From Planctomycetota bacterium (lineage in GTDB: Bacteria; Planctomycetota; Planctomycetia; Pirellulales; Pirellulaceae), in contig VGZA01000006.1 of the NCBI GenBank assembly GCA_016872775.1, positions 1 through 64,000 on the forward strand: 64,000 nucleotides of DNA, in the 5' to 3' direction. Both the position numbers and the translations under genes were made by a program. Under the pieces are notes generated by a model that saw only the letters and a program-made list of their open reading frames with translations, was not told the origin of the DNA and searched no databases. This document shows positions 682-58,866 of this stretch, in pieces. Position 1 is the stretch's first letter, and every line of letters starts with the position of its first letter.

Positions 682-722
682 GGAAATGGCGAACCTGTGG
701 TTTCAAATTGTAGCGTGAGAAC

Positions 723-743: not shown

Positions 744-745
744 GG

Positions 746-13628: not shown

Positions 13629-13693
13629 GGCGTAATCTCCCGTGCCGCGACTCGAGGGATTCCGGCGGCGTTCGTTCCGGCGGAATTGAGGGA

Positions 13694-16600: not shown

Positions 16601-16873
16601 GGACGACTGAATCCGCTCGATAAGCCCACCGCGATCGATTTGGCCCGGCACGATCGCGCCAGCTTCGATCGCCGCGTCCCGCTGGTCGATTCGCAAATCG
16701 GCCTTCCGAGATGCGCTGTCCGGTCCATGGCAGGCAAAGCAGTTGTCGGCCAATATCGGGCGGATGTCTCGGTTATATTCAAGCCGCTCCTGCGCCGTCG
16801 ACAGACCCGCCAATCCCACACCGATCGACGCGGCCAGTATCGCAACGAATACCGACTCGACTTTTTTCCGCAT
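13694..16873 (-). CDS. PSD1 protein: cytochrome (PSCyt1)-DUF1549-LamG-like-DUF1553
   Basis: The ATG at 16873 gives a signal peptide (KKVESVFVAILAASIGVGLA). Residues about 30-130 form a planctomycete cytochrome domain with a CFACH haem site (Cys45, Cys48, His49) and a candidate axial Met in ETVMPPPDSGKK. DUF1549 follows at about 145-350, containing a second Cys-x-x-Cys-His motif (NCAVCHDHKFDP). A concanavalin/LamG-like domain lies at about 465-645 (GEPFTCAAWVRL, VRIYVDGKPQE, IQDLRIYRR). DUF1553 is C-terminal (PLTARVTVNRIWQELFGVGL, PSHPELLDWMAVEF, TNTPLQALVTLNDPQFVEAA). Unlike the two homologues near 56-63 kb it carries the LamG-like insertion, which suggests glycan contact. It is probably cotranscribed with the DUF1501 gene downstream. 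Function of the family unproven. Confidence 0.92.
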   Translation of the reverse strand: MRKKVESVFVAILAASIGVGLAGLSTAQERLEYNRDIRPILADNCFACHGPDSASRKADLRIDQRDAAIEAGAIVPGQIDRGGLIERIQSSDAETVMPPPDSGKKLTPEQKERLARWIREGAEYQLHWSLISPRRPDPPPLAPGLRPGIEARNPIDHFILASLAPIGLRPAPQADRRTLARRLSLDLVGLPPSPAEVEAFVNDNSENAYEKFVDRLLDSPHWGEHRARYWLDVARYADTHGIHFDNYREIWAYRDWVIGAFNRNLPFDQFTIEQLAGDLLPQRTLEQQIASGFNRCNITTNEGGTIPEEYLVLYTRDRTETVAQVWLGSTFNCAVCHDHKFDPWTMKDFYSLSAFFNNTTQGAMDGNIRDTPPTVVVPSAADRGRWEALVAEIPAARVRVDARREEARPAFDAWLASATADMFREKLPSEGLAMHAPLNEGEGNTLKVKVGGELRDVPLQSSASWQDGVGGRKAIQVQGAACELPDVGDFERGEPFTCAAWVRLPANDSSGAICARMDRAQAYRGWDFWAQRRQVGTHIVSAWPQDAVKVVTRSQLPANQWVHVAFSYDGSGKAAGVRIYVDGKPQETLVEADKLAGAIHTDVPFKVGQRSDGEPLSAAGIQDLRIYRRTLEAGEINALASATRLVELLAKQAEQRTDKDRDEILRWWLENHDTEFRSLGAAVAALEQEQQTIRGRSTIAHVMQERTETPGAFMLHRGEYDKRRDPVTPRTPLVLPSMSDDLPLDRLGFARWLLRPEHPLTARVTVNRIWQELFGVGLVRTSGDFGVAGELPSHPELLDWMAVEFRESGWDIKRFYKLLVSSATYRQSAATTAEKLERDPANRMCSRGPRFRLDAEVLRDYALAASGLLVPKLGGPSVKPYQPDGVWEAVAMIGSNTRDYRPDTGENLYRRSMYTFWKRSAPPASLDIFNAPNRETCAVRRERTNTPLQALVTLNDPQFVEAARLLAQRTMQKGGSTVESRVDFMARQILCRPLRDAELAVVFDSFRELSEYYAANQEDARRLIAVGESRADESLPPGELAAWTMLANELLNLDEVVNK

Positions 16874-17144
16874 TGTCAGTCTTCCTTCAATCCTACACAC
16901 CCTGTTTCGTCAGCACACTTTCCGGGGATCCGGCGTTTTTGTTGACCATAAGCTGAGCAGACCCCACGATGCGCTGGGAGCCCGTTCCAACGCAGCATCA
17001 ACGTCGATACGATGCCATCTTAGTGTCCAGAAAGCGGGCTTGCAAAGCGACCTTGCGACCGTCGCTGAGCCGCTCGGTTCAATTTGCCGCGCTGTGCGTG
17101 ACGATACGCTCGAAGGTGTGCCTCAACCGCACGCGCCGCCGTGA

Positions 17145-24911: not shown

Positions 24912-24914
24912 AGC

Positions 24915-26717
24915 TCAAGCCTCGGAATCCGGACGAACGCTGAATTCCAGTTTCCAGCGCCGATCATCCCGGACACTGACGCACCACAATTCCAGCACGC
25001 CAAGTTCCGTGATCCGCGACTCAAATCGTACCGGCAAATACTGTTCTTCCTGATCGTCGGCGGCGGGCAACGTCGCTTCCATCGAATCGGTTTCGACCAG
25101 CTCGTCATCGCTCCAGCGGTCCAGCAGATCGCCGGGCCGGTCCTGGGCGCGCGTCGAGGAACTGAAAAACCGGAACTGGGCCGGCTCGCCCACCACCAAC
25201 CCGATTTCGGCGGAGGGGACGCTGCTTTGAGTCCCTTCTTCCATGCCGCGTGGTACCACGCATAACGCGCGCAAAGGTCGTGCCAGTCCGGGGATTGCCA
25301 ATCCGGACGTTTCGATGCCGATATAATAGGACCGCGCCGTGCCGCCACGAATGCGGACGCCGCCATGTTCGCGGGTCCAGCCGTACCACGCCGCGCCCCG
25401 AGCGACGGCATAATCAAGGTCCTGTTCGGCATCCAGTTCGCGTACCGGGTCACGCTCCGACCAGCTCGATACAACTTCCATCAGTCGCTGACGCAAAACC
25501 GGCGCCTTGAAGACACCGCCGTTGAAAAGCAGATGGGTGATCGGCATCGATTCGCCCTGGGTCTGGGCGCGCACGAACGACGCCACATGCCGCGTGATCG
25601 CCGGATCGGATTCGAACGGGAGCCCCATTTCCTGGAATCCCGAACCGCGCCGACGCTGCGGCTTGTCGAGAAACTGACAGCGCGGAAAGAACCCGTCGAC
25701 CAGAAGCTGCTCGACCTGTTTCCTTTGCAACGGCACCGTAACCGTACCACCAATCAGTCGACTGCCTCGACCCAGAACCGTGACCGGTAACGAATCGGGG
25801 CCGGCCGACTGCAATAAGGACTCTTTCGCATTGCGGCAGGCATGCCAGAGGGAAACGGACTGCCAGGCGTCGAGCTGCAGCCCCTGCTGGGCAAATAATT
25901 GCGCTGCGAAATGGGCGAGTGCCAGGTCCATATTGTCGCCGCCGACCAACAGGTGATCGCCGACCGCAAGCCGGCGCAGTTGCAGTTCGCCGGATTCCTC
26001 GCCCACGCCGATCATTGTCAAGTCGCTGGTGCCACCTCCGACGTCGCAAACCAGCATCGTATCGCCCAATTCCAGCGACTTGCGCCATCGATCGCCTGAC
26101 TTCGCCAGCCAGGCATGGATGGCGGCCTGCGGTTCCTCCAGCAACAGCAAGCCTTCGGCCAGTCCGGCGGCTATCGCCGCTTCGCGAGTGATTTCTCTTG
26201 CCGCCGCATCGAACGAGGCCGGAACGGTCAACACCACGCGCTGCTCCGCTAACGGCGCATTGGGAAACGCCTGGTTCCAAGCCGCCACCAGATGTTCCAG
26301 GTATCGCTGCGATGCGCCGACCGGTGAAATCCGACCGCCCATCGACGCGTCAGGCGCATGCCCGGGACTCCAGGGCAGCAAGGGTTGTCGGCGGTCGACC
26401 TTGGGATGGCAGAGCCACGACTTGGCCCCAGACACGGTCCGCTCCGGGACCGTCGCAGCATTGGCCCGCGCCCATTCGCCGATAGCAAAATCGTTCCGTG
26501 AGGCCCACGGCAAATCAAATTGACCACGACCTTTCTCATGGTCGCCCGCCAGATAGATAAACGACGGCAATTGGAGGCGCGCGTCGATGGTGTTCGCACC
26601 GACGAGCTGTGGAATCGGGAGGAGCTCGATTCGCGCATCCTCCGCGCTTAGATCACAATAGGCCACGACACTGTTGGTCGTGCCCAGATCGATCCCTACA
26701 GAAAACCGTGCCGTCAT
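24915..26717 (-). CDS. Hsp70 family protein (DnaK-like ATPase)
   Basis: The 600-residue protein has a full Hsp70-type nucleotide-binding domain: FSVGIDLGTTNSVVAYCD (6-23), ALVC-type MLVCDVGGGTSDLTMIG and THLLFNGGVFKAPVLRQRL. A C-terminal beta-rich segment of about 120 residues includes EIGLVVGEPAQFRFFSSSTR and ends RRWKLEFSVRPDSEA. It lacks the long helical tail of its neighbour. Both proteins share LCHPKVDRR/LCHAGVDRR and PWxPG/E motifs, so they are paralogues of one lineage. Its ATG overlaps the stop of the DUF2760 gene (4 bases, ATGA type), and the next Hsp70 begins 3 bases after its stop. It is probably part of a three-protein chaperone unit. Confidence 0.9.
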   Translation of the reverse strand: MTARFSVGIDLGTTNSVVAYCDLSAEDARIELLPIPQLVGANTIDARLQLPSFIYLAGDHEKGRGQFDLPWASRNDFAIGEWARANAATVPERTVSGAKSWLCHPKVDRRQPLLPWSPGHAPDASMGGRISPVGASQRYLEHLVAAWNQAFPNAPLAEQRVVLTVPASFDAAAREITREAAIAAGLAEGLLLLEEPQAAIHAWLAKSGDRWRKSLELGDTMLVCDVGGGTSDLTMIGVGEESGELQLRRLAVGDHLLVGGDNMDLALAHFAAQLFAQQGLQLDAWQSVSLWHACRNAKESLLQSAGPDSLPVTVLGRGSRLIGGTVTVPLQRKQVEQLLVDGFFPRCQFLDKPQRRRGSGFQEMGLPFESDPAITRHVASFVRAQTQGESMPITHLLFNGGVFKAPVLRQRLMEVVSSWSERDPVRELDAEQDLDYAVARGAAWYGWTREHGGVRIRGGTARSYYIGIETSGLAIPGLARPLRALCVVPRGMEEGTQSSVPSAEIGLVVGEPAQFRFFSSSTRAQDRPGDLLDRWSDDELVETDSMEATLPAADDQEEQYLPVRFESRITELGVLELWCVSVRDDRRWKLEFSVRPDSEA

Positions 26718-27367
26718 CGCTTATTGCACACCTCAACTTCCGCGGCCGCAATTACCGCCGCGGCGTCGAGGCTCCCGGACCAGGCAGGGAGCTGGCACTG
26801 CTGGACCTTCCAACCACGGTGAACCACCTTTCCCGGATACGCTTTTCCGCCGGCGGGTGATCCGTCCGCGCCTTCCAGGCTGGCTACTTTGCCCACCAGG
26901 CGGAACACTCCAGGGTCGTAACCGGCCTGAACCGCGTGGGAATCGCCTTCTGGGGTTTCGCAGACCGGGCCGATGTTGAAACAGTGATCAAGTACTTTGC
27001 GGCAATCCCGCAGCACTTCCCGAGCCGCCGCACCGATCTGCGCATCGGCATAGCCCTCCAGCGACTCGTGAACCAGATCAACAAACCGAGCCTCCCGCTG
27101 CAGCGTTGCCAGCAGAGTTACCGCTTCACTCCGTACCGCCTTCGGCGGCCCGACGGGAACGTGATCCGCTCGGGGTGAGCCGGCCGGTCGAGCTCCCTGC
27201 TGCATTGGCGACGTGGCACTGCCGGGCCGTTGATCCGTAAGACGTTCGGCGTTTGCACGACCCGTTCCAGCGTCGCTGGCCGCTAAAGCACTGGCAACCC
27301 GGTCCGCCGTTTCGCGATTGGCCAAAACCCGGAAAAAGACGGCAAACGCCAATTGCACTCGGCCCAT
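26714..27367 (-). CDS. DUF2760 domain protein
   Basis: The 217-residue protein starts with a conserved-looking helix (VQLAFAVFFRVLANRETADR), has a low-complexity spacer (about 35-75) and then a domain with LLATLQREARFVDLVHESLE and GPVCETPEGDSHAVQAGYDP. It closes with PGKVVHRGWKVQQCQLPAWS, an ending I recognise from DUF2760 proteins, which are commonly encoded next to Hsp70-type genes. No transmembrane segment is evident. It is first in the operon and overlaps the following Hsp70 gene by 4 bases, so the products are likely made in fixed ratio. A client-binding or cochaperone role is inference; the family has no established function known to me. Confidence 0.8.
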   Translation of the reverse strand: MGRVQLAFAVFFRVLANRETADRVASALAASDAGTGRANAERLTDQRPGSATSPMQQGARPAGSPRADHVPVGPPKAVRSEAVTLLATLQREARFVDLVHESLEGYADAQIGAAAREVLRDCRKVLDHCFNIGPVCETPEGDSHAVQAGYDPGVFRLVGKVASLEGADGSPAGGKAYPGKVVHRGWKVQQCQLPAWSGSLDAAAVIAAAEVEVCNKR

Positions 27368-27879: not shown

Positions 27880-30800
27880 ATGAAAAAGTCGGCACGTGCA
27901 TGGTCCCAGTTTCGTCGGCTATTCGCGGGTAAGCAGATCGCTCGATCTCCTCGACAAAAACGCCGCGAACGGGTCCGTTTCGAGCTGCTGGAACCGCGGC
28001 TGGCGCTGGCGCTTTCCCCCACCGATCATATCCACCCCTACTTTTCGATATTCCTTGATGGCCAACAGGTTACGATCCCAAACAACCTGGGAATCACGGA
28101 CACACAGACGTTCAATCCCCACACGCACGATTCGACCGGAAAGATCCACGTCGGCGAAGATGGGCTTACGGCGGGAACGAGTGGTATTGTGCGGCTCGTG
28201 ACAATGAAAGATTTCTTCGACGTATGGCGCACCCAGGGAGTCGGGACGACCTGGAACAATCCCAATGCGTTCTTCGATTCCACGCACCTCATGGACAGGA
28301 CGGCCAACGCCAGCCATGTCGTCCGCATGTATGTCAACGGGGTTCCGAACACTCAATTTGAGAATTTCGTCCCGAACGACGGCGATCGTGTGGTGCTGAG
28401 TTACGAGTCCGTCGTTGCGGCCGGCACCCCGCTCTTCGCGCCGATTGAGACGCAGAATGTGCTCGGCGGCTCGCCGCTGTTTCTGCCCGTAGACGGGTTT
28501 GACGCCGAAGGAAACAGCCTCATTTACACGATTTCCACGACGAATCCGAATTTGCTGGGGCTATCGCAGGCGACCGGCAATCAAAGTCTGAAGCTGTCGA
28601 TCCAGCAGCAGGAGTCGGACAATACCACGGAAAACCTGGGCGATATGGTGTTCCAGCTCTTCCAGGATCTAGCGCCGCGACCGGCAAACCGTGTTGCCCA
28701 ACTGGCCGGTTCCGGATTCTACAACGGCACGATCTTTCACCGAGTGATCGACAACTTTGTCATCCAGGGCGGTGACCCGACGGGCACGGGCAGCGGTGGA
28801 TCCCCATTGGGCAATTTTGATGATCAATTCCATGTCGATCTGCAGCACAATCGCACAGGATTGCTCTCGTATGCAAAATCGTCGGATGACACGAACAATT
28901 CCCAGTTCTTTGTGACCGAAGGCCCGCAGCGCCACCTCGACTTCAATCACTCGATTTTTGGAATCCTGACCGAGGGCGAAAACGTCCGGGATCGCATCAG
29001 TAACGTTACCGTGACGAATTCCAAGCCCGTCGAGCCGGTTGTGATCAGCGCGGCGGCCGTTTTCAGCGACAATCAAAACACTGTTTTCAAGCTCAAAGCG
29101 GCCGAAGGCGCCACCGGATCGGCCGACGTGACGATCACCGCGACCGACTCGACCGGCAAGTCGTTCAGCCGTACGTTTCGCGTGAACGTCACGCCCGACA
29201 CGTCGAATGGCGGACCATTTCTCAACGATATCGCGCCGGTTCGAACCACGATCAACCAGCCAGTGACGTTCCAACTTGTGTCTCAGGATGTCGAAGGCAA
29301 CGCCGTCGCCTTCACAGCCACGTCGACCAATTCCTCGGCGACGGTTTCCGTTTCGCCCACGGGGCTGGTCAGCGTGACGCCACCCACCGGATTTACAGGG
29401 ACGCTGCCGGTCACGGTTTCGGTAAAGGCAGGTACCGGTGTCCCGAACAACACCGGGGATGCGTCCGATGTGCAGCTTGTGAACGTCACGGTGGCACCTG
29501 CGACCCCCGGTGTGCCGGACCTGGCGAACGCCTTCGATTCCGGGGCCAGCAATTCCGACAACCGCACGAACCTCAAGAATGGACTTCAGTTCCTGGTTTC
29601 CGGTGTTGCCAATGGTGCGACGGTCGAACTGCGTGAAGGCAGTACCGTGCTCGGTTCGGCCATCGCGGGCGCGACGGGAACTGTGGCGATTACGACGAAC
29701 GTCGCGTTGAGCGACGGAGCACACAACATTACGGCGATACAAACACTCTCTGGAGCGGCCAGCAACGCGGGCAGCGCACTGACGGTGAATGTCGACTCGA
29801 CAGCTCCCACGTTCAGTTCCACCGCGCCGACGCAGGCGACGGTCGGAACGTTGTTGAGCTACGACGCAAACGTGAATGAAACGGTAACGTTCAGTCTGGT
29901 GAATCCACCCTCGGGCGCCACGATCGACGCCAACACCGGGATCGTCATATGGACACCCGGCTCGGGGCAGTCGGGCACCCAGTCTTTCGGGATCCTGGCG
30001 ACCGACACGGCGGGTAATGGTACGACCCAGGCGGTAACTCTCTCGGTTGCCGACGGCAAACCGGTTCAGTTCCGGCTGGAGATCACCAACACCAGCGGCA
30101 ATCCGCTCACCGGCCCGATTGACGTTGGCACGGTCTTCGACGTACGGATGTTCGCTCAAGATCTGCGGACCACCCCCAACATCGATCTGGGGGTATTCAG
30201 CGCGTACATGGATATCACCTTCGATCCCTTGAAGGCGGAACGCACCACGGATCCGCTCGTGCACTCCTCGACCTACGGTGTCGCGCCGTCTCCGATTCCG
30301 GAAACGGCCACTTCGGGCTTGCTCGATGAATTCGGCGGCACGGCGGGAAGTCTGTCGCCGTTAGGCGGCGATGAATTTCTGGTAGGGACGGCCCGATTCC
30401 GCGCCAAAGGCTCCGGACTTCTGGCCTTCGAGGGCAACCCGGCCGACAACCAGGAGCAACGTGGAGTCCTGCTGTATGGGCTCGGTACGTTTTTCCCGAA
30501 TGATCAGGTGCGATACGGTACCGCCACGATCCAGGTGCAGTCGGCGATCGGCGCGAACGCCGACACATTCTCCGTGGACGAGGACTCCAGCAACAACTCG
30601 TTGAATGTTCTGGCGAACGACAAATCGGGTTCGAACGGAGTGCTGACGATCACGGGCGTTTCCGCTACCAGCAAAGGCGGCGTGGTCGCGGTCACCAGCG
30701 GTGGAAAAGCGGTCACTTTTACTCCAGCGCCCAACTTCACCGGCACCGACCAATTCAGCTACACCGTGCAGGAGGGCAGCGACACGACAACGGCCACCGT

Positions 30801-32802
30801 CGATGTCCAGGTCTTCAATGTCAACGATGCGCCGGTGGGCAAGGACGACAATTTCACCTTCCAGGAAGATTCGCCCAGCCAGACGCTGGATGTATTGGGG
30901 AACGATACCGATATCGATCCTGCCGATTCGTTGCGCGTGTTGTCCTTTACGGCGCCGAGCAAAGGTGGCAACGTATCGTTGGGAAATAACGGCCTGCACC
31001 TCAGTTATCGCCCCGCGCCCAACTTTTTTGGCACAGAGACATTCACCTACACGCTGGCCGACCGCGCCAACCTCGTTTCCACCGCCACGGTGACCTTGAC
31101 GATCACCGAGCGCAACGATCCTCCTAACGCGTTGAATGACGTTGTCACGGTCGACGAGGACAGCCAGAGCAATACGCTCAATGTGCTCGCCAACGACACC
31201 GACGCCGAAAACAACCCGATCACCATTTCCAGCGTCGGCAGCTCAACGAATTCAACGATTGCGGTCTCGGCCGACAAGAAATCGCTGGTCTATACTCCCA
31301 ACAAGGACTTCGCCGGTGCCGATTCGTTCACGTATACGGCGACCGATGGAAACAGCACCGGCCAGGGAACGGTGTTCGTTACGGTCAAGAACGCGAACGA
31401 CCCGCCGACCGCGACAAACGATACTTTGGAATCGCGCAAGAATGCGGCGGCACAGTCATTGAATTTGCTTGCCAACGACAGCAGTTCCCCGGACGCCAAC
31501 GAAACGTTGACGATTACCTCGGTGAGCGTCCCGAGCGCTGGGGGCAGTTTGACGATCGCCGATAACAAACTGACGGTGAGCTACGCTCCCGCCAAGGACT
31601 TCGTTGGCCAGGAGACCTTCACTTACACGATTTCCGATGGTAACGGCGGCACGGCGACCGCGACCGCCACGGTCAAGGTGCTCGACTTCATCCCTAGTTC
31701 GCTCGCTGGCAACGTCTTCCTCGACCGGAACAACAACGGCATCCAGGACGCCGAAGAAGCGCCGATTGCGGGTGTCAAAATCACGCTTGACGGTATCGAT
31801 TCGGTTACCAACAAGACGGTGCAGCGAGAAGCATTCACCAACAGCAATGGTGTCTACCAGTTCGCCGACCTGGCGCCTGGGACGTACAGCTTGATCCAGA
31901 CCCAGCCTGCGTTTATTAACGATGGCCTGGATCGGGTGGGGACCCATGGCGGTACGATCGACCAGAATGACCGGATCCGCGTCACGCTTCCGGAGAATGT
32001 GGCCGCCAATAACTACTCGTTTGCCGAACGAGGCCGGCCGGCGCGATTCCTTACACTGGCCGATTTCACTGCTCGCAACAATACCGGACTGGTTTACGCG
32101 GCCGTTTCCAACGACGCGGTTCTCTGGAGGTCGTCGTCCATGAATACGACTCCTCAAATCACCGGATTAGCCGTCAACAGCACCGGATTGGAACTCAACG
32201 CGTTGCAGCCGCAAGGGAACAGTTCCACAGCCGTGCGTGCCATCCTGCCATTCACCGATAACAGGGTGAGAACACTGGCGCACGATGGCAACAGCATTCT
32301 TTATGCGATTTCCGGCAATGCTCAGGACCTGAATTTCCAGCCGATCACCAACGGCGGTTCCGGCACCAACGGCGGTTCCGGTGAAGGCGAATCGTCGGCC
32401 TTGCCACCGCAGGGCATTTCCACAATGCCGATGGTCACCCCCGCCGCCCGTTCGACATTTACGCTTGACGTCACGCCGGAAATCCCCGCGCTTGCCGCGA
32501 GTTCGCCACCCGCCGCATCGAATCTGAACGGCCTGTTTCCGATTTCACAGATCACGATGCCTGTCGCGGGATCGAACAGCGGCTCGGATCTTGTCGACGC
32601 AGCCCATCGTCAAAGCAGACTCTCCGGCAATTCGGGTCTGGCACCGTCGGTCGTTGATGCGGTGATGGCCGAATCCGACGCCGTTTCTCCAGCGATTGCG
32701 GAGTCGTCCGAACCGCACGACCACACGCACGATTCGCTGGACGCCGATGCCGGCCACCTGGCGCTCGAGCAGTTCTTCGCATCGTGGTACGGAAACGGTT
32801 AG
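27880..32802 (+). CDS. Giant surface protein: His-rich domain, cyclophilin, cohesin-like, cadherin-like repeats, SdrD-B-like
   Basis: The basic leader ends in FELLEPRLALALS (about 34-46), the LE-x-R-x-L motif of planctomycete surface proteins. Residues 47-178 form a His-bearing domain (DHIHPYFSIFLDG, NPHTHDSTGKIHVGEDG). Residues 252-390 are a cyclophilin-type peptidyl-prolyl isomerase (GDMVFQLFQDLAPR, FYNGTIFHRVIDNFVIQGGD, TNNSQFFVTEG). Ig-like regions follow to about 725. A cohesin-like domain occupies about 726-880 (VQFRLEITNTSGNPL, LGVFSAYMDITFDPLKAE, FLVGTARFRA). Four cadherin-like repeats with N-V-L-A-N-D cores run to about 1270, then an SdrD-B/Cna-B-like domain (GNVFLDRNNNGIQDAEEAPI). 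The C-terminus has a GEGES linker and a His cluster (HDHTHDSLDADAGH). It is probably exported and cell-surface bound; partners unknown. Confidence 0.85.
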   Translation: MKKSARAWSQFRRLFAGKQIARSPRQKRRERVRFELLEPRLALALSPTDHIHPYFSIFLDGQQVTIPNNLGITDTQTFNPHTHDSTGKIHVGEDGLTAGTSGIVRLVTMKDFFDVWRTQGVGTTWNNPNAFFDSTHLMDRTANASHVVRMYVNGVPNTQFENFVPNDGDRVVLSYESVVAAGTPLFAPIETQNVLGGSPLFLPVDGFDAEGNSLIYTISTTNPNLLGLSQATGNQSLKLSIQQQESDNTTENLGDMVFQLFQDLAPRPANRVAQLAGSGFYNGTIFHRVIDNFVIQGGDPTGTGSGGSPLGNFDDQFHVDLQHNRTGLLSYAKSSDDTNNSQFFVTEGPQRHLDFNHSIFGILTEGENVRDRISNVTVTNSKPVEPVVISAAAVFSDNQNTVFKLKAAEGATGSADVTITATDSTGKSFSRTFRVNVTPDTSNGGPFLNDIAPVRTTINQPVTFQLVSQDVEGNAVAFTATSTNSSATVSVSPTGLVSVTPPTGFTGTLPVTVSVKAGTGVPNNTGDASDVQLVNVTVAPATPGVPDLANAFDSGASNSDNRTNLKNGLQFLVSGVANGATVELREGSTVLGSAIAGATGTVAITTNVALSDGAHNITAIQTLSGAASNAGSALTVNVDSTAPTFSSTAPTQATVGTLLSYDANVNETVTFSLVNPPSGATIDANTGIVIWTPGSGQSGTQSFGILATDTAGNGTTQAVTLSVADGKPVQFRLEITNTSGNPLTGPIDVGTVFDVRMFAQDLRTTPNIDLGVFSAYMDITFDPLKAERTTDPLVHSSTYGVAPSPIPETATSGLLDEFGGTAGSLSPLGGDEFLVGTARFRAKGSGLLAFEGNPADNQEQRGVLLYGLGTFFPNDQVRYGTATIQVQSAIGANADTFSVDEDSSNNSLNVLANDKSGSNGVLTITGVSATSKGGVVAVTSGGKAVTFTPAPNFTGTDQFSYTVQEGSDTTTATVDVQVFNVNDAPVGKDDNFTFQEDSPSQTLDVLGNDTDIDPADSLRVLSFTAPSKGGNVSLGNNGLHLSYRPAPNFFGTETFTYTLADRANLVSTATVTLTITERNDPPNALNDVVTVDEDSQSNTLNVLANDTDAENNPITISSVGSSTNSTIAVSADKKSLVYTPNKDFAGADSFTYTATDGNSTGQGTVFVTVKNANDPPTATNDTLESRKNAAAQSLNLLANDSSSPDANETLTITSVSVPSAGGSLTIADNKLTVSYAPAKDFVGQETFTYTISDGNGGTATATATVKVLDFIPSSLAGNVFLDRNNNGIQDAEEAPIAGVKITLDGIDSVTNKTVQREAFTNSNGVYQFADLAPGTYSLIQTQPAFINDGLDRVGTHGGTIDQNDRIRVTLPENVAANNYSFAERGRPARFLTLADFTARNNTGLVYAAVSNDAVLWRSSSMNTTPQITGLAVNSTGLELNALQPQGNSSTAVRAILPFTDNRVRTLAHDGNSILYAISGNAQDLNFQPITNGGSGTNGGSGEGESSALPPQGISTMPMVTPAARSTFTLDVTPEIPALAASSPPAASNLNGLFPISQITMPVAGSNSGSDLVDAAHRQSRLSGNSGLAPSVVDAVMAESDAVSPAIAESSEPHDHTHDSLDADAGHLALEQFFASWYGNG

Positions 32803-33046
32803 ACTAAGTGGCCCCGTTCCTACCCTGGGTTCTACCAGCACCCATCCGAGTTCTCGGTCGAGCGCCACGGCCACCGGCACCAACCGACGTCGCGCTTTGA
32901 GACGACGTCCGTTCGCAGTTCGGGAGACCTTCGGTCGGCGGGCTGTGCGGGGTCAGAGACCCGCGCACAGCGAGACAGGATGTCGTCACCACTGTCGCTA
33001 ACTCGGCCCGCACGAGTCGCACGATTCGCGATTCAACGTAAAGGGG

Positions 33047-33117
33047 GACGGGAGTCTTTGGCGGCGGCGTCTTCTCGCATGGTGTGTTGATTGGCGCCAA
33101 AGACTCCCGACCCCGAC
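33047..33117. repeat. Inverted-repeat element, copy 1 (GGGAGTCTTTGGCG family)
   Basis: GGGAGTCTTTGGCG (33050-33063) is repeated as its exact complement CGCCAAAGACTCCC (33095-33108) with a 31-base spacer. A second copy with a 17-bp arm is at 50301-50365; spacers differ between copies. The arrangement resembles a small non-autonomous (MITE/REP-like) element. The rest of the 470-base gap 32803-33272 shows no convincing gene. Confidence 0.85.
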
Positions 33118-33272
33118 CCCGTCCATCGTCGAAAACGCGCGCTTCGACGCGATGATTGAACGATGAAGTGAAACCGCGAGCGTCTCCATGAGGTCGGTCG
33201 TCATTAGCGAACTGTTGCCCGCCTTGAACAGTAACTCGAGCTCGTCACGGATACCGATTCTCGGACGGGCCA

Positions 33273-34709
33273 CTACCTTGTAAGTTGCGTGAACTCGAAG
33301 AGTTCCGCCTGCGGGACCGTGGCTGACTTCCGGCGTTGTTCGGCAAACTGGAAGAAGCGAACCGAATCGCAGTTCAATACGGGATCGTCGCCATCCGGGA
33401 GTCCCGATTCGACAATCACGTCGCCCGACTTATCCCGGGTAAACGTCCATTGGCCGCCGCCAGGGCCGGTCAGATTGAAGCCTAACGACAGGATTTGCCG
33501 GCGCGGTTCGCCGTGCGTTGCCAGGAACGAGCCGACGATTTCGCGTGCGAGCGACGTAATCTCCGCGTCGCCCCATCCTGGGATCGACGGTTCCGCCGGC
33601 TTCCGACGCCCCCAGCGATCCTCTTCCCCGAACTTCAGGAACCGATGCAACATTGCTTCGTCAATGCGCGGACAGGGCAAGTCGGGCGCCATCCGCTGCA
33701 GGTTGGTCGTATCGAATTCGGGATCGGAATGCTCGTACGCTTCGTACATCGTTTTGTTGTCGTAGGTTGCCCGTTCGGCTCGCGAGATGGCGTCATCCGC
33801 GTCGTGCTCGGGTCCGCAGAATTCCACGCCACAGGAATTGAAGAACCTGTAACCGGCTTCGATGATCTGCCGTGGAGTGATGGGATCAATGGGACTCAAA
33901 TGATAGGTCAGACCGTGGGATTCCTCACGGGCCAGCAAATGGGCGATCACCGATGCGACCCAATCGACGGGCACGATATTGCGCGGTTCATCCCCCGACA
34001 TATTCAAGCGAATATTGGTGTGCCGCACGCCATGCTCATCCGGTTCCGTGTTGCGATTCAGAACCGCCATTAACTGCAGATACATGTACAGGCCATGGTA
34101 GGTGCTGGTGTAGCCGGTACGCGAATCTCCAGCGATGACCGCCGGTCGATAAACGGTCAGGCTGTCGAAGATTCTGGTTTCCCGCATCGCGATTTCCGCC
34201 AGCATCTTGCTCTGTTCGTACTCGTTGCGGAATTCCTGCCCGCAGTCGAGCTCGCTCTCCATGATTCGACCGTCGCGGGATCCGCAGACGTAGGCGGTTG
34301 AAACGTAGTGCGCCTTGCGAATTCCGATTTGTTCGCAGAAATTTTTCAGGTTCAGCGTTCCCGTCAGATTGGTACGCCACGGATCGGCCGACCGATCCGC
34401 GCCGTGAAATGTCAGGGATGCGGCATTATGCAGAACGGTATCACAATGGCTTTCCACCCATTGCCGCTCGGTGCGGTTCAGGCCCAGCCCGTCCTCGCAA
34501 ACATCTCCGCCCAGCACCACCGGCCGTGGCAAGGAATTGCCTAATTCGTTTTCCCAGGTTTGCAGAATTTGCTCGACCCGCTCGCGGACCGTCTGCTTTC
34601 CCGACTGCCGAATTACCAGTGCCAGCCGATGGCCATCCAGAAGCAGATCGCGAACGAGATAGCGCCCGACAAGGCCCGTGGCGCCGGTCATCAGGACGTA
34701 TTTTGTCAC
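33273..34709 (-). CDS. SDR-family NAD-dependent epimerase/reductase (Male-sterility/thioester-reductase-like)
   Basis: I place the start at the GTG at 34709, which follows AGGGGAG by 8 bases; the frame also extends upstream to an in-frame start at 34781 without a good ribosome site. The N-terminus has the NAD(P) motif VLMTGATGLVGRYL (residues 5-18). The catalytic set is Ser137, Tyr164 and Lys168 (HYVSTAYV, YEQSK). The AHYVSTAYVCG and VPVDWVASVIAHLL segments match the extended-SDR group that includes fatty acyl-CoA reductases and carboxylic acid reductase R domains. The last 120 residues (LSLGFNLTGPGGGQWTFTRD, LNCDSVRFFQFAEQR) resemble an SCP2/sterol-carrier-like lipid-binding domain. A role in acyl-thioester or lipid reduction is plausible but unproven. 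Confidence 0.8.
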   Translation of the reverse strand: MTKYVLMTGATGLVGRYLVRDLLLDGHRLALVIRQSGKQTVRERVEQILQTWENELGNSLPRPVVLGGDVCEDGLGLNRTERQWVESHCDTVLHNAASLTFHGADRSADPWRTNLTGTLNLKNFCEQIGIRKAHYVSTAYVCGSRDGRIMESELDCGQEFRNEYEQSKMLAEIAMRETRIFDSLTVYRPAVIAGDSRTGYTSTYHGLYMYLQLMAVLNRNTEPDEHGVRHTNIRLNMSGDEPRNIVPVDWVASVIAHLLAREESHGLTYHLSPIDPITPRQIIEAGYRFFNSCGVEFCGPEHDADDAISRAERATYDNKTMYEAYEHSDPEFDTTNLQRMAPDLPCPRIDEAMLHRFLKFGEEDRWGRRKPAEPSIPGWGDAEITSLAREIVGSFLATHGEPRRQILSLGFNLTGPGGGQWTFTRDKSGDVIVESGLPDGDDPVLNCDSVRFFQFAEQRRKSATVPQAELFEFTQLTR

Positions 34710-34936
34710 GCAGGCGGCTCCCCTTGATCGTCTGAACGGGGCCGGTCCGGCGGATGGCAACTTGACGAAGCATCCCCGCAACCGACTTAAACCCGGTGAT
34801 TTTAGTATCCTCGGGGGGCCGCCGCAATGGGCGCGATCTTCGTTGAGGCAGTCGAGACGAAGAGAACAGGTAACGATTTTTTCGTGGAGAGCTTAGGAAA
34901 GCTGTGCGGGCGCGGCGGCGGCGTGATCCGAGGTGA

Positions 34937-36286
34937 TCAATAGCGCCAGACAACACCCAGGTTGAGTCCATGCACCCAGTAGCCGCCGTCTTCGAGCACG
35001 CGGGCGGGACGTTGAACGATCGGCGGCACCGCCAGATTCACCGCCAGGCTGGGATCGATCGTGTTGCCAGGTTGCAGAACCTGATTCCAATAAATGTACG
35101 TGTAGCCCAGTGACAGGTCGATCGAAGGAGTCAGGTGAAAAACTCCCGTGAGATTTAACTCGGGCACCGCGGCGAACGTGTTGCGGCTGAACAGCCCGCG
35201 ATTCGTCGACTGAACGAGCAATCCCGTGTCGGAGACGACCGGTGCATTCACGCCATCGTCGATAATCTGTTCGCCGCTCAAACGGGCTGACTGGTGCATG
35301 TTGCCCAAACCGACCTTAACGAGCGCGCGACACGACCACCAGGCATCGTCCACGGTATACGCCAGGCCCAATGTTGCACCGTGAAATTCGTTGCGTGTTT
35401 GAAACTGATCGAACACCCGCAGCTCCGCCGCCAGGTCCAGCGCGTTGGTCTCGCTGCGAACCGTCAGGCTTTCCGCGATCCGGGAGAACTGATAACCGTA
35501 TTGCAGTTCCACGCGCAATCGTCCATTGTCGGAGATCAATCGCCGCAGATAGGCGTCGCCGGCGATCACTTCCGAGGTTGTGTCCACAATCACCGTTCCT
35601 GTGCGAACGCCAGGAAACGCGACGACCAGCGCGTCTTGCTGAATCACCTGATTGTCGGTCACATTGAGAAACGGCCGGCCAAGGGTGGTGGTGTCCGCAC
35701 TGGAAAGTTGAAAGTGGGAATCGCTCGACCCGAGAAAAGCGAATCGCCCCCCGACGCTCCAGATGCGACAGGGATCGCACCAGGCCCCCATGGAAAACCG
35801 GCCCCCAGGTCGGCTCGTATCACCAACATCGGAATTCCCATAAAGCAACGTCGTCGGCGGCAGGCCCAGGACTCCCGCGTCGGTAAATGCCGTTCCCTGT
35901 GAACTGGTGGTCACCATAGGGGGCAGACCGATCCCCTTCCGCCACCAGAGCAGGTAATCGAGTTCCATCCAGTAGTCCCGTTCGTAGGGATCAAAACAGC
36001 CGGCGTCGCTCCAGCATGGGTCGTCACCGAATTCGCCGAACTGCAACTCGGTTGGTTCCGCAAGCGGATGGACGCTCGGGTCCTCGACCGGTTCCTCCGC
36101 GGAGGCACGGGCAATCGTTCGGGAACCGGCATGAAATCGATACTCGCCGCCCAACGCCAGGTTGGTCGTCGCCAGCAGCATGCCGATCCAGCCGGCGGCG
36201 ATCGTTGCGGTCAGCCGTCTTGCCAGCCGCATCGCCAGAATCAGGCTTCGCTCCCGGCCCGTTGTTCCGTCGCCACGCTTCACCAT
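34937..36286 (-). CDS. BBP7-family outer membrane beta-barrel protein
   Basis: The start at 36286 has GGAG 7 bases upstream. A long basic n-region precedes the signal core (TATIAAGWIGMLLATTNLAL). The mature part has the BBP7 signature: ERDYWMELDYLLWWRKGIGLPPMVTTS, with LGLPPTTLLYGNSDVGD and RPGGRFSMGAWCDPC shortly after. The remainder is alternating beta strands (ELQYGYQFSRIAESL, GATLGLAYTVDDAWWSCR, SLGYTYIYWNQVLQPGN) and it ends in GVVWRY, an aromatic C-terminus fit for BamA-mediated insertion. Predicted location is the outer membrane. It lies between the two giant surface-protein genes, on the opposite strand. Function of the family is unknown. Confidence 0.88.
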   Translation of the reverse strand: MVKRGDGTTGRERSLILAMRLARRLTATIAAGWIGMLLATTNLALGGEYRFHAGSRTIARASAEEPVEDPSVHPLAEPTELQFGEFGDDPCWSDAGCFDPYERDYWMELDYLLWWRKGIGLPPMVTTSSQGTAFTDAGVLGLPPTTLLYGNSDVGDTSRPGGRFSMGAWCDPCRIWSVGGRFAFLGSSDSHFQLSSADTTTLGRPFLNVTDNQVIQQDALVVAFPGVRTGTVIVDTTSEVIAGDAYLRRLISDNGRLRVELQYGYQFSRIAESLTVRSETNALDLAAELRVFDQFQTRNEFHGATLGLAYTVDDAWWSCRALVKVGLGNMHQSARLSGEQIIDDGVNAPVVSDTGLLVQSTNRGLFSRNTFAAVPELNLTGVFHLTPSIDLSLGYTYIYWNQVLQPGNTIDPSLAVNLAVPPIVQRPARVLEDGGYWVHGLNLGVVWRY

Positions 36287-36473
36287 TGCCGTACTCCGCC
36301 TTCGCGCCCGAATCGAACCGACCGGAGACTGGTTCGGCGGACCGGATCGCGATCCGCACCATGTTTGTCGGTTACAAGGGCTTTGACGGTTGAGAAAACC
36401 TGGCGATTTAGGCTGACTTTTCCAGCGAGGCTTGGCGTGAATTCTATAAAGGTCAGAAAGATCACGAGATTTG

Positions 36474-36502
36474 TTGATAATCCGATTTTGCCGTGTTAGT
36501 AT
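36474..36502 (+). promoter_or_regulatory. Candidate sigma-70-type promoter for the dockerin surface protein
   Basis: TTGATA (36474-36479) and TAGTAT (36497-36502) are separated by 17 bases, with one and two mismatches to the TTGACA/TATAAT consensus. Transcription would begin near 36509, about 54 bases before the GTG start at 36563. Prediction by eye only. Confidence 0.4.
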
Positions 36503-36562
36503 GATTTTCCGGTTGTAACCTCAGTAAGACCCGTTCCTTACGATCGCTGCAGAGGGGCCGTT

Positions 36563-39500
36563 GTGTTTGGAAAACTCCCCCATGCTCGCCGTGTCGAATC
36601 ACGGCGGGATCACCGTATCCGTTCGTCCCGCCGGCTGTTTCTCGAATCATTGGAAAACCGCCAGCTTCTGGCCGCTTTCACCCCTGGGAACATCCTGGTA
36701 AGCAGCGCCCCGTTTGACCAGCCGGCAATGCTCTTGGAGTACACGCCAACGGGAGAGCTGGTGCAGTCGGTCGTGGTGCCGCATCCGACCAATTCCAGCA
36801 TCGACAAGGCGCGCGATATCGTCGTGGATCGTTCGGGCAAGGTGGAGATTTACAACGGTTCGTACAATCCGCGTCTGACCACCTTCGACCCGGTTTCCGG
36901 CAGTTTTTCCCACACCAACTTCCCGACGTGGGATACCAGCAGTCACGTGACCTATGGCGGGATTGCGGCTTTGAATGAATTTGTGTTCACCACGGACCAG
37001 CAGGTGCGGGGCGAGCCGGACAGTTCGCGCGGGTTGGTGCGATTCAACGTCGAGAATCTCAATTCGGGGTGGACGCTGAACCCGGCGCCGGACATTGGCG
37101 ACAGCATCGTCAATACGTCGACGTTCATTCCCCATTTGACGGTGCATGGGACGGGGAACGGCAGCGTGGACTATTATTCGTTCACGGTTTCACAAGTTCC
37201 CGCGCGTGGGATATTCGACATCGATCGGGGCGATACCGGGACAACGGACGGATTTCGTTCCGGGCTGCGATTGTTCAACAGTGAGGGGGTGTTGCTGGCG
37301 CAAAACAACGGGGATGTGCCGATCAATGTTGGCGGACTCGGCAGCACCGGCACCGGAGATGCTTACCTGGAATACGAGTTCAGTAAGCTTGGTGATTATC
37401 GAATCCAGGTCGGCAGTTGCTGCCCGTTCGCGGGCGTACCGGTCGGAAGCAGCTACGATCTGCAGTTGTCGCTCGAGCATCATTCGCTGTTCATACCGGC
37501 GGGCAATGGCGAGTTGAACGAGGTCGAACCGAACGATACGTTCTTCACGCCGCAGAACACGGACTCCGCGGAACGGTTTGCGTCGGCGGACGGGAGCGTG
37601 CTGGACGTTGCGGTCGGTCTGGACGGGCTTGTCTACACGTTGATTTACTCCAATTCGCCGACCAGCGGCGGGAACGTCGTCAACGTTTACGATCCGGGAA
37701 CACTGCAGCGGCTTCGTACGATGACATTGGTGGGCGAACACCGAGCGATTGCCGTCGACGCCAGCGGTCTGCTGTATGCGGCCAACCCGGGCCTTGCGCG
37801 TTACGACGCCTCCGGGAACCTGCTTTACCAGATTTCCAGTCCGATCACCGGAATCCTGGCGGATCTCGACATTCGATCCGATGGCACCTTGCTCGTGGCT
37901 TCCAATACCGGGAATATTGCCCTGACGAATACTCGACTGGATGGCGTCGATTTCTTTTCGGCGCGCCCGTCGAATGGCACGACGTTCGCCGCGTTTGTGC
38001 AGGATCCAACGCGTGTACCGCGTGCCACGGATGACATCTTTCGCGTTGCTGAGGATACCAACAATTCGATCCTCAGTGTTCTGATCAACGATCTGGTCGA
38101 CTCGCGCGGTCTGTTGGTGATCGAATCCCTGTCAACGCCCGACCATGGCGGATCGGTGTCCATTGTGGGAGGACGCAGCGTCCGCTATACACCGGCCGCC
38201 GATTTCGTGGGCACGGAGTCATTCCACTATACGGTGCGCGATGGTCTGGGCAGTTTTGCGACCGGGCGTGTGCAGGTTCTGGTTTCGAACGTGAACGAAC
38301 CGCCGGTCGCCAACGGCGATTCGTTTTCCGTGCTGGAAGATTCCGCCGCCATGACTTTCAGCGTTCTGGAGAACGACTCGTTCGCTCCCGATATCGACGA
38401 GGTTTTGACGATCACCGAGGTGAGTGCGGGTTCGAACGGCGCCGAGCTGAAGATTGTCGACGACGGGACGCGGGTCTCGTATCGACCTCGTGCCAACTTT
38501 GCCGGTCTGGATAAGTTCACGTACACCATCAGCGATGGCAATGGCGGCAGGGCCGAGGGAACGGTCACCGTATCGGTCGTGAATACGAACGATAATCCAA
38601 CGGCGGTCGCCGATAACTTGAATGTGCTGCCCGGCAGCGTCAACAACGGGCTGAACGTTCTTGCCAACGACTCCGCGGCGCCGGATTCCGGCGAGACCTT
38701 GACCATCATCCAGGTCACAACGCCTTTGCACGGTACCGCCAAAATTGACAAGAATCGCATTGCCTATACGCCGACGGCGGGCTACATCGGGACCGATTCA
38801 TTCACCTATCGCATCAGCGACGGCAACGGTGGTTTCGCCGAAGCCAGGGCCAATCTCACCGTCGACCTGATCAACAATCCCCCGGTGGCCGACGATGACG
38901 TCTTTAATGTGCGGATCAACAGCAGCGGCCACAATTTCGCCGTTCTCAAGAATGACTCGACCGAACCCGACGCCAACGAAACTCTGACGATCACCGATGT
39001 CACTGTTCCGTCCGCGAACGGCGTTGTCGAGATCGTCAATAATTCGGTCTTGCGTTATTCGCCGGCGATTGCCTTTGCCGGCCTGGAGACGTTCCAATAC
39101 ACGGTTACCGACGGACGTGGCGGGGCCTCGTCGGCCACCGTGTTCGTCAATGTCGGCGACTTCAACAGCGATCCCGCCGCCAATGACGATAATATCGTCG
39201 TGCGGCAAAACGTCGTGCAACTTCAACTCGACGTGCTCGCCAATGACCGCGACCCGGACGGCGACACCATTCGAATCAGTGAGGCGCCGGGGACGTCGCT
39301 GCGCGGAGGCAGTGTGGCGATTACCGAGGATGGCGGCGCCCTGCTGTATACCGCCCCCAGCCCGTTCCTCGGCTCCGACGTTGTCACCTATACCATCTCT
39401 GACGGGCTTGGCGGAAAGGGCTCCGCAACCGTGGCAATTCGAGTCATCGGCTGGCAGAACCCCATCAATCCCCTGGATGTCAACGGCGATACCTGCGTCA

Positions 39501-39976
39501 GCGCCATCGATGTCTCGATCCTGATCAACGAACTGAACCGCCCCTTCATCACCGACGGTCGAGGCAACCTCCCGACACCTCCCCCGGTAGTGACAACGTT
39601 CTACGATGTGAGTGGCGAGGGCTTTCTTACGGCACTCGACCCACTCAAGATCATCAACGAGCTGAATCGTAATCGATCAACATGTGGCCCGAACCTCGGT
39701 TCGGGCGGGGAGGGGGAGTCGTTCGTAGCCCCGGTCGCAACTCCCTCGGTTTCATCCCGTTCACCCTCCGTTCCCGACATCGGCGTGGCAAAGTCGTGGA
39801 ATCCACAGCGTAAAACCGGGCCGCTCGCCGACTACGTATTGCCGCAGCTGTCGAACCCCACAACACGTTCGATCGCAGTTCCCGCCGTCAATCCGCAGCT
39901 CGACGCGGCCCTGAACGACGTCATCGATGCCCTCGCCCGCGATCTGCTGACGCACCGCCGGAAAAACCGGGGGTAG
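36563..39976 (+). CDS. Giant surface protein with PPC-like domain, cadherin-like repeats and type I dockerin
   Basis: A GTG start is preceded by AGAGGGG. The leader carries the planctomycete motif LFLESLENRQLLA (25-37). After a beta-rich, NHL/beta-propeller-like part (DIVVDRSGKVEIYNG, GGIAALNEFVFTTD), residues about 190-315 resemble a pre-peptidase C-terminal (PPC) domain (VDYYSFTVSQVPARGIFDID, GDYRIQVGS). Five cadherin-like repeats follow (about 490-960), each with a core like FSVLEDSAAMTFSVLENDS. Two Ca-binding dockerin repeats are next (NPLDVNGDTCVSAIDVSILI and TFYDVSGEGFLTALDPLKII), each with its NELNR end. The tail has a SGGEGES linker. It is probably secreted and anchored through dockerin-cohesin contact. 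A cohesin-like partner is encoded at 27880-32802. Confidence 0.87.
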   Translation: MFGKLPHARRVESRRDHRIRSSRRLFLESLENRQLLAAFTPGNILVSSAPFDQPAMLLEYTPTGELVQSVVVPHPTNSSIDKARDIVVDRSGKVEIYNGSYNPRLTTFDPVSGSFSHTNFPTWDTSSHVTYGGIAALNEFVFTTDQQVRGEPDSSRGLVRFNVENLNSGWTLNPAPDIGDSIVNTSTFIPHLTVHGTGNGSVDYYSFTVSQVPARGIFDIDRGDTGTTDGFRSGLRLFNSEGVLLAQNNGDVPINVGGLGSTGTGDAYLEYEFSKLGDYRIQVGSCCPFAGVPVGSSYDLQLSLEHHSLFIPAGNGELNEVEPNDTFFTPQNTDSAERFASADGSVLDVAVGLDGLVYTLIYSNSPTSGGNVVNVYDPGTLQRLRTMTLVGEHRAIAVDASGLLYAANPGLARYDASGNLLYQISSPITGILADLDIRSDGTLLVASNTGNIALTNTRLDGVDFFSARPSNGTTFAAFVQDPTRVPRATDDIFRVAEDTNNSILSVLINDLVDSRGLLVIESLSTPDHGGSVSIVGGRSVRYTPAADFVGTESFHYTVRDGLGSFATGRVQVLVSNVNEPPVANGDSFSVLEDSAAMTFSVLENDSFAPDIDEVLTITEVSAGSNGAELKIVDDGTRVSYRPRANFAGLDKFTYTISDGNGGRAEGTVTVSVVNTNDNPTAVADNLNVLPGSVNNGLNVLANDSAAPDSGETLTIIQVTTPLHGTAKIDKNRIAYTPTAGYIGTDSFTYRISDGNGGFAEARANLTVDLINNPPVADDDVFNVRINSSGHNFAVLKNDSTEPDANETLTITDVTVPSANGVVEIVNNSVLRYSPAIAFAGLETFQYTVTDGRGGASSATVFVNVGDFNSDPAANDDNIVVRQNVVQLQLDVLANDRDPDGDTIRISEAPGTSLRGGSVAITEDGGALLYTAPSPFLGSDVVTYTISDGLGGKGSATVAIRVIGWQNPINPLDVNGDTCVSAIDVSILINELNRPFITDGRGNLPTPPPVVTTFYDVSGEGFLTALDPLKIINELNRNRSTCGPNLGSGGEGESFVAPVATPSVSSRSPSVPDIGVAKSWNPQRKTGPLADYVLPQLSNPTTRSIAVPAVNPQLDAALNDVIDALARDLLTHRRKNRG

Positions 39977-58848: not shown

Positions 58849-58866
58849 TTGTCCTGGAGAATTCGC

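Follow-up and report, generated by a model that had tools for sequence, protein, structure and literature searches.

A predicted cohesin-fold foldase and a dockerin protein as candidate members of a non-cellulosomal surface system in a planctomycete

Two giant proteins encoded in a genome of the Pirellulaceae, A and B, are read here as part of a non-cellulosomal surface system of cohesins and dockerins that extends across the genome and in which A would be a docking foldase, a reading to which we assign a probability of roughly 0.55. The window, i.e., the whole analysed stretch of 64,000 nucleotides (contig VGZA01000006.1, positions 1 to 64,000), had been given a preliminary description, and the open reading frames of both proteins were recovered at the positions assigned there (Table 1). 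In the proposed arrangement, cohesin-like modules on A and on three other proteins would act as sockets for about 20 dockerin proteins, including B, which would plug in through calcium-bound loop-helix repeats. The carriers would be giant, leader-bearing, cadherin-repeat proteins, and those bearing both a module and a dockerin would be adaptors through which units are joined in larger arrays. The N-terminal half of A, with its cyclophilin and, in most relatives, a thioredoxin-like domain, would be a folding enzyme outside the cytoplasm, held by the socket of A beside dockerin-tagged surface proteins. Dockerin binding by A, and which of the dockerins it would bind, we infer.

Table 1. Features of proteins A and B and of the genes between them (positions within the window)
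Feature	Position	Strand	Basis
Protein A, 1640 aa: leader, His-rich domain, cyclophilin, Ig-like, cohesin-like module, Big_9 repeats, SdrD_B, C-terminal domain, GEGES, tail	27880..32802	+	ORF, Pfam
Degenerate LEPR-type leader of A (LEPRLALALS)	27988..28017	+	sequence
His-rich domain of A, about residues 45-190	28012..28449	+	poor model, weak matches
Cyclophilin-type peptidyl-prolyl isomerase domain of A (residues 249-392)	28624..29055	+	PF00160, E 2.2e-36
Cohesin-like module of A (residues 724-889)	30049..30546	+	AlphaFold2 model and structure matches
Tandem Big_9/cadherin-like repeats of A, approximate limits	30562..31686	+	PF17963, E 1.8e-79 (entire protein)
SdrD_B-like domain of A (residues 1277-1347)	31708..31920	+	PF17210, E 1.1e-14
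GEGES motif of A, then 135-residue tail	32380..32394	+	sequence
NAD_binding_4 (male-sterility type) reductase between A and B	33273..34781	-	Pfam, E 6.3e-42
BBP7 putative outer-membrane beta barrel	34937..36286	-	PF07585, E 9.3e-99
Protein B, 1137 aa: leader, N-terminal region, five Big_9 repeats, dockerin, GEGES, tail	36563..39976	+	ORF, Pfam
Planctomycete extracellular leader of B	36626..36676	+	PF07595 over cut-off
Two-repeat type I dockerin of B (residues 972-1035)	39476..39667	+	PF00404 over cut-off
GEGES motif 3' of B dockerin, then 84-residue tail	39707..39721	+	sequence

The module of A is predicted with high confidence to have a cohesin fold, which is cryptic by sequence. The AlphaFold2 model (pLDDT 94.3, pTM 0.90) has nine strand elements, numbered here in their order within the model, and so agrees with the nine-strand jelly roll of about 140-170 residues by which we defined the cohesin fold. 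The top ten Foldseek rows against the PDB are all cohesins or cohesin-containing constructs, and rows 1-24 of VIA-align are cohesins, with 2vo8 as the best solved match (Z 14.1, rmsd 2.4, 134/135 residues) and the Ig domains of PrgB as the first non-cohesin row (Z 11.0). The earlier claim of a cohesin-like region at about residues 726-880, for which comparison of a predicted structure with cohesins had been proposed as a check, is thereby borne out. Pfam Cohesin (PF00963) has no match in the module of A or, at E<=10, in any other part of the genome, and no cohesin was retrieved when PDB sequences were searched with the module, either by itself or as profiles; the sole match, an adiponectin construct at E 0.026, was judged to be due to chance. 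Two of 26 modules from relatives match PF00963 weakly (best E 0.0012), the A-type module of G010 matches it at 0.0059, below the cut-off, and a profile-profile comparison with 12 planctomycete Pfam cohesins aligned 47 columns with probabilities of 51% and 71%. On the strength of the model, we take the module of A to be a predicted cohesin-fold module rather than a PF00963 member. Plasmid records searched at E 1e-5 held no copy of the module.

One alternative, doubtful in our view though the one to be taken most seriously, is that the modules are Ig-like structural spacers that have kept the jelly roll and do not bind dockerins, while the dockerins bind something else or are calcium-stabilised caps before the sorting tail. 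The silence of Pfam Cohesin on the module of A would agree with this, as would the position of the modules within strings of Ig-like repeats and the similarity of adhesin jelly rolls (PrgB and AgI/II rows, Z 10 to 11). The pattern of conservation speaks to both sides. In known cohesins, as given in the part of the source available, the dockerin-binding face is made of strands 8-3-6-5 (PMC5429695). Within the module family, strands 3 and 5 have mean entropies of 1.29 and 0.94 bits versus 1.94 to 2.35 for the remaining strands, and they are again lowest in a wider module set; conservation so concentrated on strands of the dockerin sheet would be unexpected in a spacer. Strands 6 and 8 of the same sheet, unlike 3 and 5, are without conservation, as a spacer would allow. 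The existence of a protein with four modules in tandem, described below, argues in turn for sockets.

The distribution of the modules, found in 62 of the 98 genomes searched (source genome counted), also bears on the spacer alternative. Among 60 genomes of the family, for which the per-genome counts of dockerins and leaders are minimum values, dockerins number 4 or more in each of the 49 with modules and 0 to 3 in the 11 that lack them. Such joint presence and absence would be unexpected of spacers, but it is confounded, as the 11 module-free genomes are also leader-poor (1 to 7 leaders). Because the leader-poor genomes are the same ones that lack modules, the co-occurrence is weak evidence, and we rejected it as strong proof of a functional link, given that these genomes are without most of the leader system; the entire surface system may have been lost together, which would explain the co-absence of modules and dockerins. 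Within the 49 module-bearing genomes, the rank correlation between modules and dockerins is 0.59, or 0.42 with leader counts held fixed, in each case with kinship ignored. Outside this family but within the order, genomes with at least 50 dockerins (G065, G067, G082, G084) had no module detected, which favours spacers.

The inventory of the source genome points to a shared system. It holds eight cohesin-like modules in four proteins, one in A and four, two and one in the others, and a dockerin search gave 26 rows. Of these, 19 are loci above the cut-off, L029 and L030 represent the second repeats of L027 and L028, and L031 to L035 fall below it. Since 19 dockerin loci stand beside eight modules in four proteins, the partnership between modules and dockerins in this genome is likely many-to-many, as far as sequence can tell. 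The contig 1 protein is scaffoldin-like, with four modules and its own dockerin, and three of the four module-bearing open reading frames (contigs 1, 36 and 100) have a dockerin of their own. It is conceivable, if unlikely, that the main partnership is among these dual proteins, in chains or by folding back, and that A docks on such adaptors rather than on B. In the contig 36 protein, the last module runs to residue 1555 and the dockerin starts at 1571, 16 residues apart, and a similarly close module-then-dockerin order in G023:C3, G038:C90 and G006:C1 would suit this arrangement. The same contig 36 protein contains HEAGHFFGNFH, which we take to be a metzincin-type motif. Against a partnership centred on dual proteins, A has no dockerin itself, and no module is present in 17 of the 20 dockerin open reading frames examined (which include L032, below the cut-off and the sole one kept of L031 to L035).

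The preliminary description had paired A with B, and a dedicated pair, co-located through mutual binding, now appears very unlikely. The two genes lie 3.8 kb apart, and L104 and L150, which have one arrangement in common, likewise bring together an A-type gene with dockerin genes and BBP7. Within 5 kb of the A-type gene, nevertheless, a separate dockerin gene is found at only three loci out of 34 (the window's own, L104 and L150), as sought with the source-genome dockerin profile, by which divergent dockerins may be missed. The 34 are those with 5 kb on both sides once L089, L094, L096 and L099, taken as duplicates because their contigs match others in length, were dropped. In one locus set the best 80 of 312 were kept. 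The conservation of the gene pair that was to be looked for in relatives likewise finds no support, in that none of 59 relatives has a full-length homologue of B or of its N-terminal region, to which 10 of them have partial matches. The 19 dockerin loci, moreover, would be in competition for A.

The dockerin of B is a type I dockerin by Pfam (PF00404, E 4.2e-9, 36.9 bits versus a cut-off of 22.9), with calcium loops that read DVNGDTCVSAID and DVSGEGFLTALD; phmmer at E<=1 found no match for it among solved chains. That B carries a two-repeat type I dockerin thus stands, but B does not end in it, because 102 residues including GEGES come after. The LE-x-R-x-L leader described as common to both proteins is recognised in B by PF07595, whereas A has LEPRL at residues 37-41 with no PF07595 match at E<=1. 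The GEGES motif is indeed present near the C-terminus of both, and its place behind the dockerin is not due to chance. Within 60 residues downstream of the dockerin, GEGE occurs in 12/20 and EGE in 16/20 of the dockerin open reading frames, against 3 GEGE and 13 EGE in the 66,994 residues that make up 135 other open frames of more than 300 aa from the same stretches (open frames of unchecked gene status). The GEGE DNA pattern has 93 sites in the whole genome versus 65 for the reversed pattern, a count that is uninformative alone; the striking feature of GEGE is only its place downstream of dockerins.

Between A and B, the BBP7 barrel lies where it had been reported, together with a second minus-strand gene, for the reductase. 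Among the matches listed, to which G008, G018, G020 and others with unlisted matches do not belong, BBP7 is within 10 kb of 8 of 67 module loci versus 0.82 expected; this count has the contig 100 locus of the source genome added, and the expectation comes from full BBP7 counts. With the source genome excluded, the figures are 6 of 63 and 0.77 (P 1.5e-4). Module genes thus have BBP7 in their vicinity more often than expected by chance, as the suggested association implied. BBP7 is a plausible outer-membrane partner, any role of it being putative.

The socket of A is joined to what appears to be a folding enzyme. PF00160 places residues 249-392 in the cyclophilin family (125.9 bits versus a cut-off of 21.7), and Pfam also reports Big_13 and He_PIG in A besides the Big_9/cadherin-like repeats and SdrD_B. 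The cyclophilin had gone unmentioned in the preliminary description. The His-rich domain (pLDDT 67) has weak beta-grasp or transcobalamin beta-domain-like matches, none below E 0.001 in Foldseek, and its profile found no convincing match among PDB sequences. At the position of this domain, 36 of 46 named A-type open reading frames have a WCxxC thioredoxin-like motif beside the cyclophilin, and a profile of six such domains finds VKOR-fused thioredoxin (4.4e-18 and 4e-17). The thioredoxin reading is drawn from these relatives, as the A of the window has no Pfam thioredoxin match; no VKOR domain was reported in the A-type proteins L112 and L158. Because the thioredoxin-like motif stands beside the cyclophilin in 36 of 46 relatives, the most fitting reading of A is that of a surface foldase equipped with a docking socket, within a conserved family of predicted protein-folding enzymes. 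Neorhodopirellula pilleata (L131) and Rhodopirellula solitaria (L141) are among the relatives that have an A-type protein. Its secretion to the surface and its foldase activity are both presumed.

It may even be that A-type proteins are docking foldases that combine, outside the cytoplasm, a VKOR-type thioredoxin with a cyclophilin and use their cohesin to bring in dockerin-tagged giant proteins as clients for oxidative folding and display, and that the EGE motif and tail are a processing, attachment or sorting signal of a leader-defined export system; we regard this fuller scheme as speculative and, taken as a whole, quite improbable. A search of the open full-text literature found no paper on the docking-foldase combination. 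Planctomycete genomes may hold dozens of dockerins and, to our knowledge, none of their partners is established. The cohesin-fold module, mostly missed by Pfam, is a concrete candidate receptor for them, and its conserved cyclophilin/thioredoxin carrier suggests a use of cohesin-dockerin pairing beyond polymer degradation. An unexplained abundance of dockerins thus becomes a question open to binding experiments.

Among known systems, the closest solved structures are the non-cellulosomal cohesins of Clostridium perfringens (2vo8, 2jh2 and 2w1n; Z 14.1, 13.6 and 13.0), which according to their entry titles are on glycoside hydrolases, whereas the carrier of the module described here is a cyclophilin protein that has a leader and Big_9 repeats. 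The thioredoxin part of the VKOR-thioredoxin fusion (3kp8, 3kp9, 4nv2) is matched by the six-domain A-type profile, but in A-type proteins the thioredoxin-like domain has a cyclophilin and a cohesin-like module as its fusion partners. As in cellulosomes, with their scaffoldin and type I dockerins, the contig 1 protein combines module repeats with a dockerin and the dockerins have two repeats; unlike in cellulosomes, no carbohydrate-binding or carbohydrate-active domain was reported in the five proteins scanned (A, B and those of contigs 1, 36 and 100), which supports the non-cellulosomal setting suggested earlier. The planctosome of freshwater Nemodlikiaceae, a hypothetical model, is also a planctomycete system and, in the portion of its account available, shares non-cellulosomal cohesins and dockerins on large secreted proteins and a dual-module adaptor (PMC6461901), i.e., a cohesin and a dockerin on one protein, as in the contig 1, 36 and 100 proteins. 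The metzincin-type motif of the contig 36 protein is a further point of resemblance. A lamin-tail anchor, P-domains, a HYR adaptor and dockerin peptidases are, in that same portion, the planctosome's own (PMC6461901); the scan of the five proteins here gave no lamin-tail domain, so that the lamin-tail/P-domain anchor was not recovered in them. Features that set the present system apart, as far as that portion goes, are a different lineage, a divergent cohesin missed by Pfam, the cyclophilin/thioredoxin carrier, a four-module protein, the BBP7 linkage and the EGE tails. With the planctosome as its precedent, the system is best described as a variant form of cohesin-dockerin assembly outside cellulosomes.

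The cohesin identity of the module in protein A comes from its predicted structure and would not be evident from sequence alone. The Pfam Cohesin family matched neither this module nor anything else in the genome at E≤10, and sequence searches of the PDB found no cohesin for it. A model built from an alignment of 45 modules (mean pLDDT 94.3, pTM 0.90) had cohesins as its closest solved structures, which supports the cohesin-like domain proposed in the preliminary description. Foldseek returned cohesins in rows 1-10 (best E 6e-6) and PrgB in row 11. In VIA-align the top 24 rows were all cohesins, three non-cellulosomal ones from Clostridium perfringens scoring highest (Z 14.1, 13.6 and 13.0); the first non-cohesin row was the Ig domains of PrgB (Z 11.0). 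Pfam Cohesin was reached weakly by 2 of 26 modules; the A-type module (i.e., one sharing an ORF with a cyclophilin) of the relative G010 gave E 0.0059, under the cut-off. The module profile aligned with 12 planctomycete Pfam cohesins over 47 columns, with probabilities of 51% and 71%. Module conservation peaks at strands 3 and 5, with 1.29 and 0.94 bits of entropy versus 1.94 to 2.35 for the remaining strands, as it does in a wider module set (1.43 and 1.21 bits; others 1.85 to 2.23). In solved complexes, the 8-3-6-5 sheet forms the dockerin-binding plateau of cohesins, according to PMC5429695. Strands 3 and 5 both fall in this sheet, while its strands 6 and 8 are not conspicuous for conservation.

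The leader of protein A is of a degenerate LEPR type. It is followed by a His-rich domain, the cyclophilin isomerase domain and Ig-like domains (Big_13, He_PIG) up to the module, beyond which lie tandem repeats of Big_9/cadherin-like type, an SdrD_B domain and a C-terminal domain, then GEGES and a tail. In protein B a leader clearly of the planctomycete type (PF07595) precedes ~450 N-terminal residues that have no Pfam match and look propeller-like; next come five Big_9 repeats and the two-repeat dockerin, with GEGES and a tail after it. The BBP7 barrel earlier placed between them is present, as is a reductase gene. Directly upstream of A lie two Hsp70-like genes, of which one has DUF3731, together with a DUF2760 gene, and one of three DUF1501 proteins in the window adjoins a PSCyt1/PSCyt2/PSD1 cytochrome-type protein.

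Features of the window and of related loci (L-numbers) in the same genome
Feature	Position	Strand	Basis
Protein A, 1640 aa	27880-32802	+	ORF reading
His-rich domain of A	28012-28449		
NAD_binding_4 reductase, between A and B	33273-34781	-	Pfam
BBP7 barrel, between A and B	34937-36286	-	Pfam
Protein B, 1137 aa	36563-39976	+	ORF reading
Hsp70-like genes, DUF2760 gene	22047-27367	-	
Second BBP7-like protein, weak (E 4.6e-6)	2208-3509	-	
DUF1501 protein	12141-16900	-	
DUF1501 protein	54344-55777	+	
DUF1501 protein	58849-60300	+	
Contig 1 protein: four modules, dockerin, GEGE	L036:3464-6658	+	sequence + Pfam scan
FKBP-type isomerase-like gene preceding it	L036:2265-3341		judged from sequence
Contig 36 protein: two modules, dockerin	L037:2763-7922	-	sequence + Pfam scan
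Contig 100 protein: dockerin, module, Big_9 repeats, SdrD_B, GEGE; adjoins BBP7 gene	L038		
Short dockerin protein, contig 53	L042, ORF 2-748	-	

The 5.85 Mb assembly, of which the window is contig 6, holds eight modules in four ORFs (the search gave nine rows, two on contig 100 being the two halves of a single module that carries an insertion). It is taken to come from a planctomycete because of its relatives and of the planctomycete leader, PSCyt and BBP7 families that it encodes. The contig 1 protein is scaffoldin-like, with three modules, two Big_9-type repeats, the fourth module, a dockerin and GEGE. The contig 36 protein contains HEAGHFFGNFH, which we take to be a metzincin-type motif, although a Pfam scan of the protein reported no peptidase. 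Since there are also 19 dockerin loci above the Pfam cut-off, and 17 of the 20 dockerin ORFs examined lack a module, A and B as neighbours are probably one instance of a repertoire in which many sockets serve many plugs.

The pair itself is not conserved in relatives. Among the 34 of 59 A-type ORFs flanked on each side by 5 kb of sequence, a separate dockerin ORF lies within 5 kb at three loci (the window, L104 and L150) and BBP7 at five (these three, L086 and L163). L104 and L150 have one common arrangement, so this clustering of all three genes represents at most two lineages. The N-terminal 452 residues of B had no full-length match in 59 relatives and partial matches in 10, the best extending ~215 residues. 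Four BBP7 genes occur in the genome at E≤1e-10, and two adjoin module genes. Among the matches listed, and with shared ancestry ignored, BBP7 lies within 10 kb of 8 of 67 module loci in 31 genomes, against 0.82 expected (Poisson P 2.4e-6), or 6 of 63 against 0.77 (P 1.5e-4) without the genome in which the link was first noticed. This makes BBP7 no more than a candidate outer-membrane partner.

Counting the genome itself, the module occurs in 62 of 98 genomes, dockerins in 76 and Pfam cohesins in 23. Within the family (60 genomes), each of the 49 genomes with a module (E≤0.001) has at least 4 dockerins, and the 11 that lack it have 0 to 3 apiece. This co-occurrence is weaker than it looks because the 11 also have few leader matches (1 to 7, versus a median of 21 in the others). 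Within the 49, module and dockerin counts correlate by rank at 0.59, or 0.42 with leaders held fixed; dockerin and leader counts are lower bounds, and the statistics ignore shared ancestry. Four genomes from other families of the order (G065, G067, G082 and G084) have at least 50 dockerins and no detected module, and many dockerins have been published for kelp planctomycetes (PMC5264255).

EGE follows the dockerin within 60 residues in 16 of 20 ORFs of the genome (GEGE in 12), whereas 66,994 residues from other open frames contain 13 EGE and 3 GEGE; elsewhere it does so in 4/5 dockerin ORFs from stretches of other relatives and 7/12 in named loci. Among 36 A-type ORFs with a WCxxC motif, some ending at contig ends, EGE precedes WCxxC within 60 residues in 33 and lies in the last 220 residues in 28 (both in 27). 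EGE looks like a mark of the leader-bearing export system. In the contig 53 protein, a long GGGELG/GSGELG repeat running to the contig end replaces this tail.

A search of named genomes with the surface cyclophilin matched 312 loci; the best 80 are all planctomycetes by label (Pirellula, Rhodopirellula, Rubripirellula and others) except L181 ('bacterium'). These include 46 ORFs with cyclophilin and module together; 44 have a single copy of each, and in 42 of those the two are 320 to 360 residues apart. WCxxC lies ahead of the cyclophilin in 36 of the 46. Of the remaining ten ORFs, at least three start at a contig edge (L109, L115, L118). The WCxxC-bearing domains match Pfam thioredoxin weakly, and a profile of six matches the thioredoxin part of VKOR-thioredoxin fusions (4.4e-18). 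Where most relatives have this domain, A has its His-rich domain, which has no Pfam family and modelled poorly (weakly beta-grasp-like, with weak matches to transcobalamin beta-domain and Urm1-like folds). The same domain is present in a further seven ORFs (L086, L092, L118 in part, L121, L138, L147 and L165), all but L092 with a detected cyclophilin. Searches of the open literature returned nothing joining dockerin and cohesin with peptidyl-prolyl and thioredoxin, nothing on extracellular thioredoxin and cyclophilin in planctomycetes, and nothing linking Pirellula, peptidyl-prolyl and surface protein.

The best reading, in which we infer binding, localisation and enzyme activity alike, is that A and B belong to a non-cellulosomal cohesin-dockerin surface assembly, as first proposed. 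A would be its foldase-bearing socket and B one among many plugs. Among published proposals the planctosome (PMC6461901) comes closest: the two systems are alike in principle but differ in their anchor domains and carriers.
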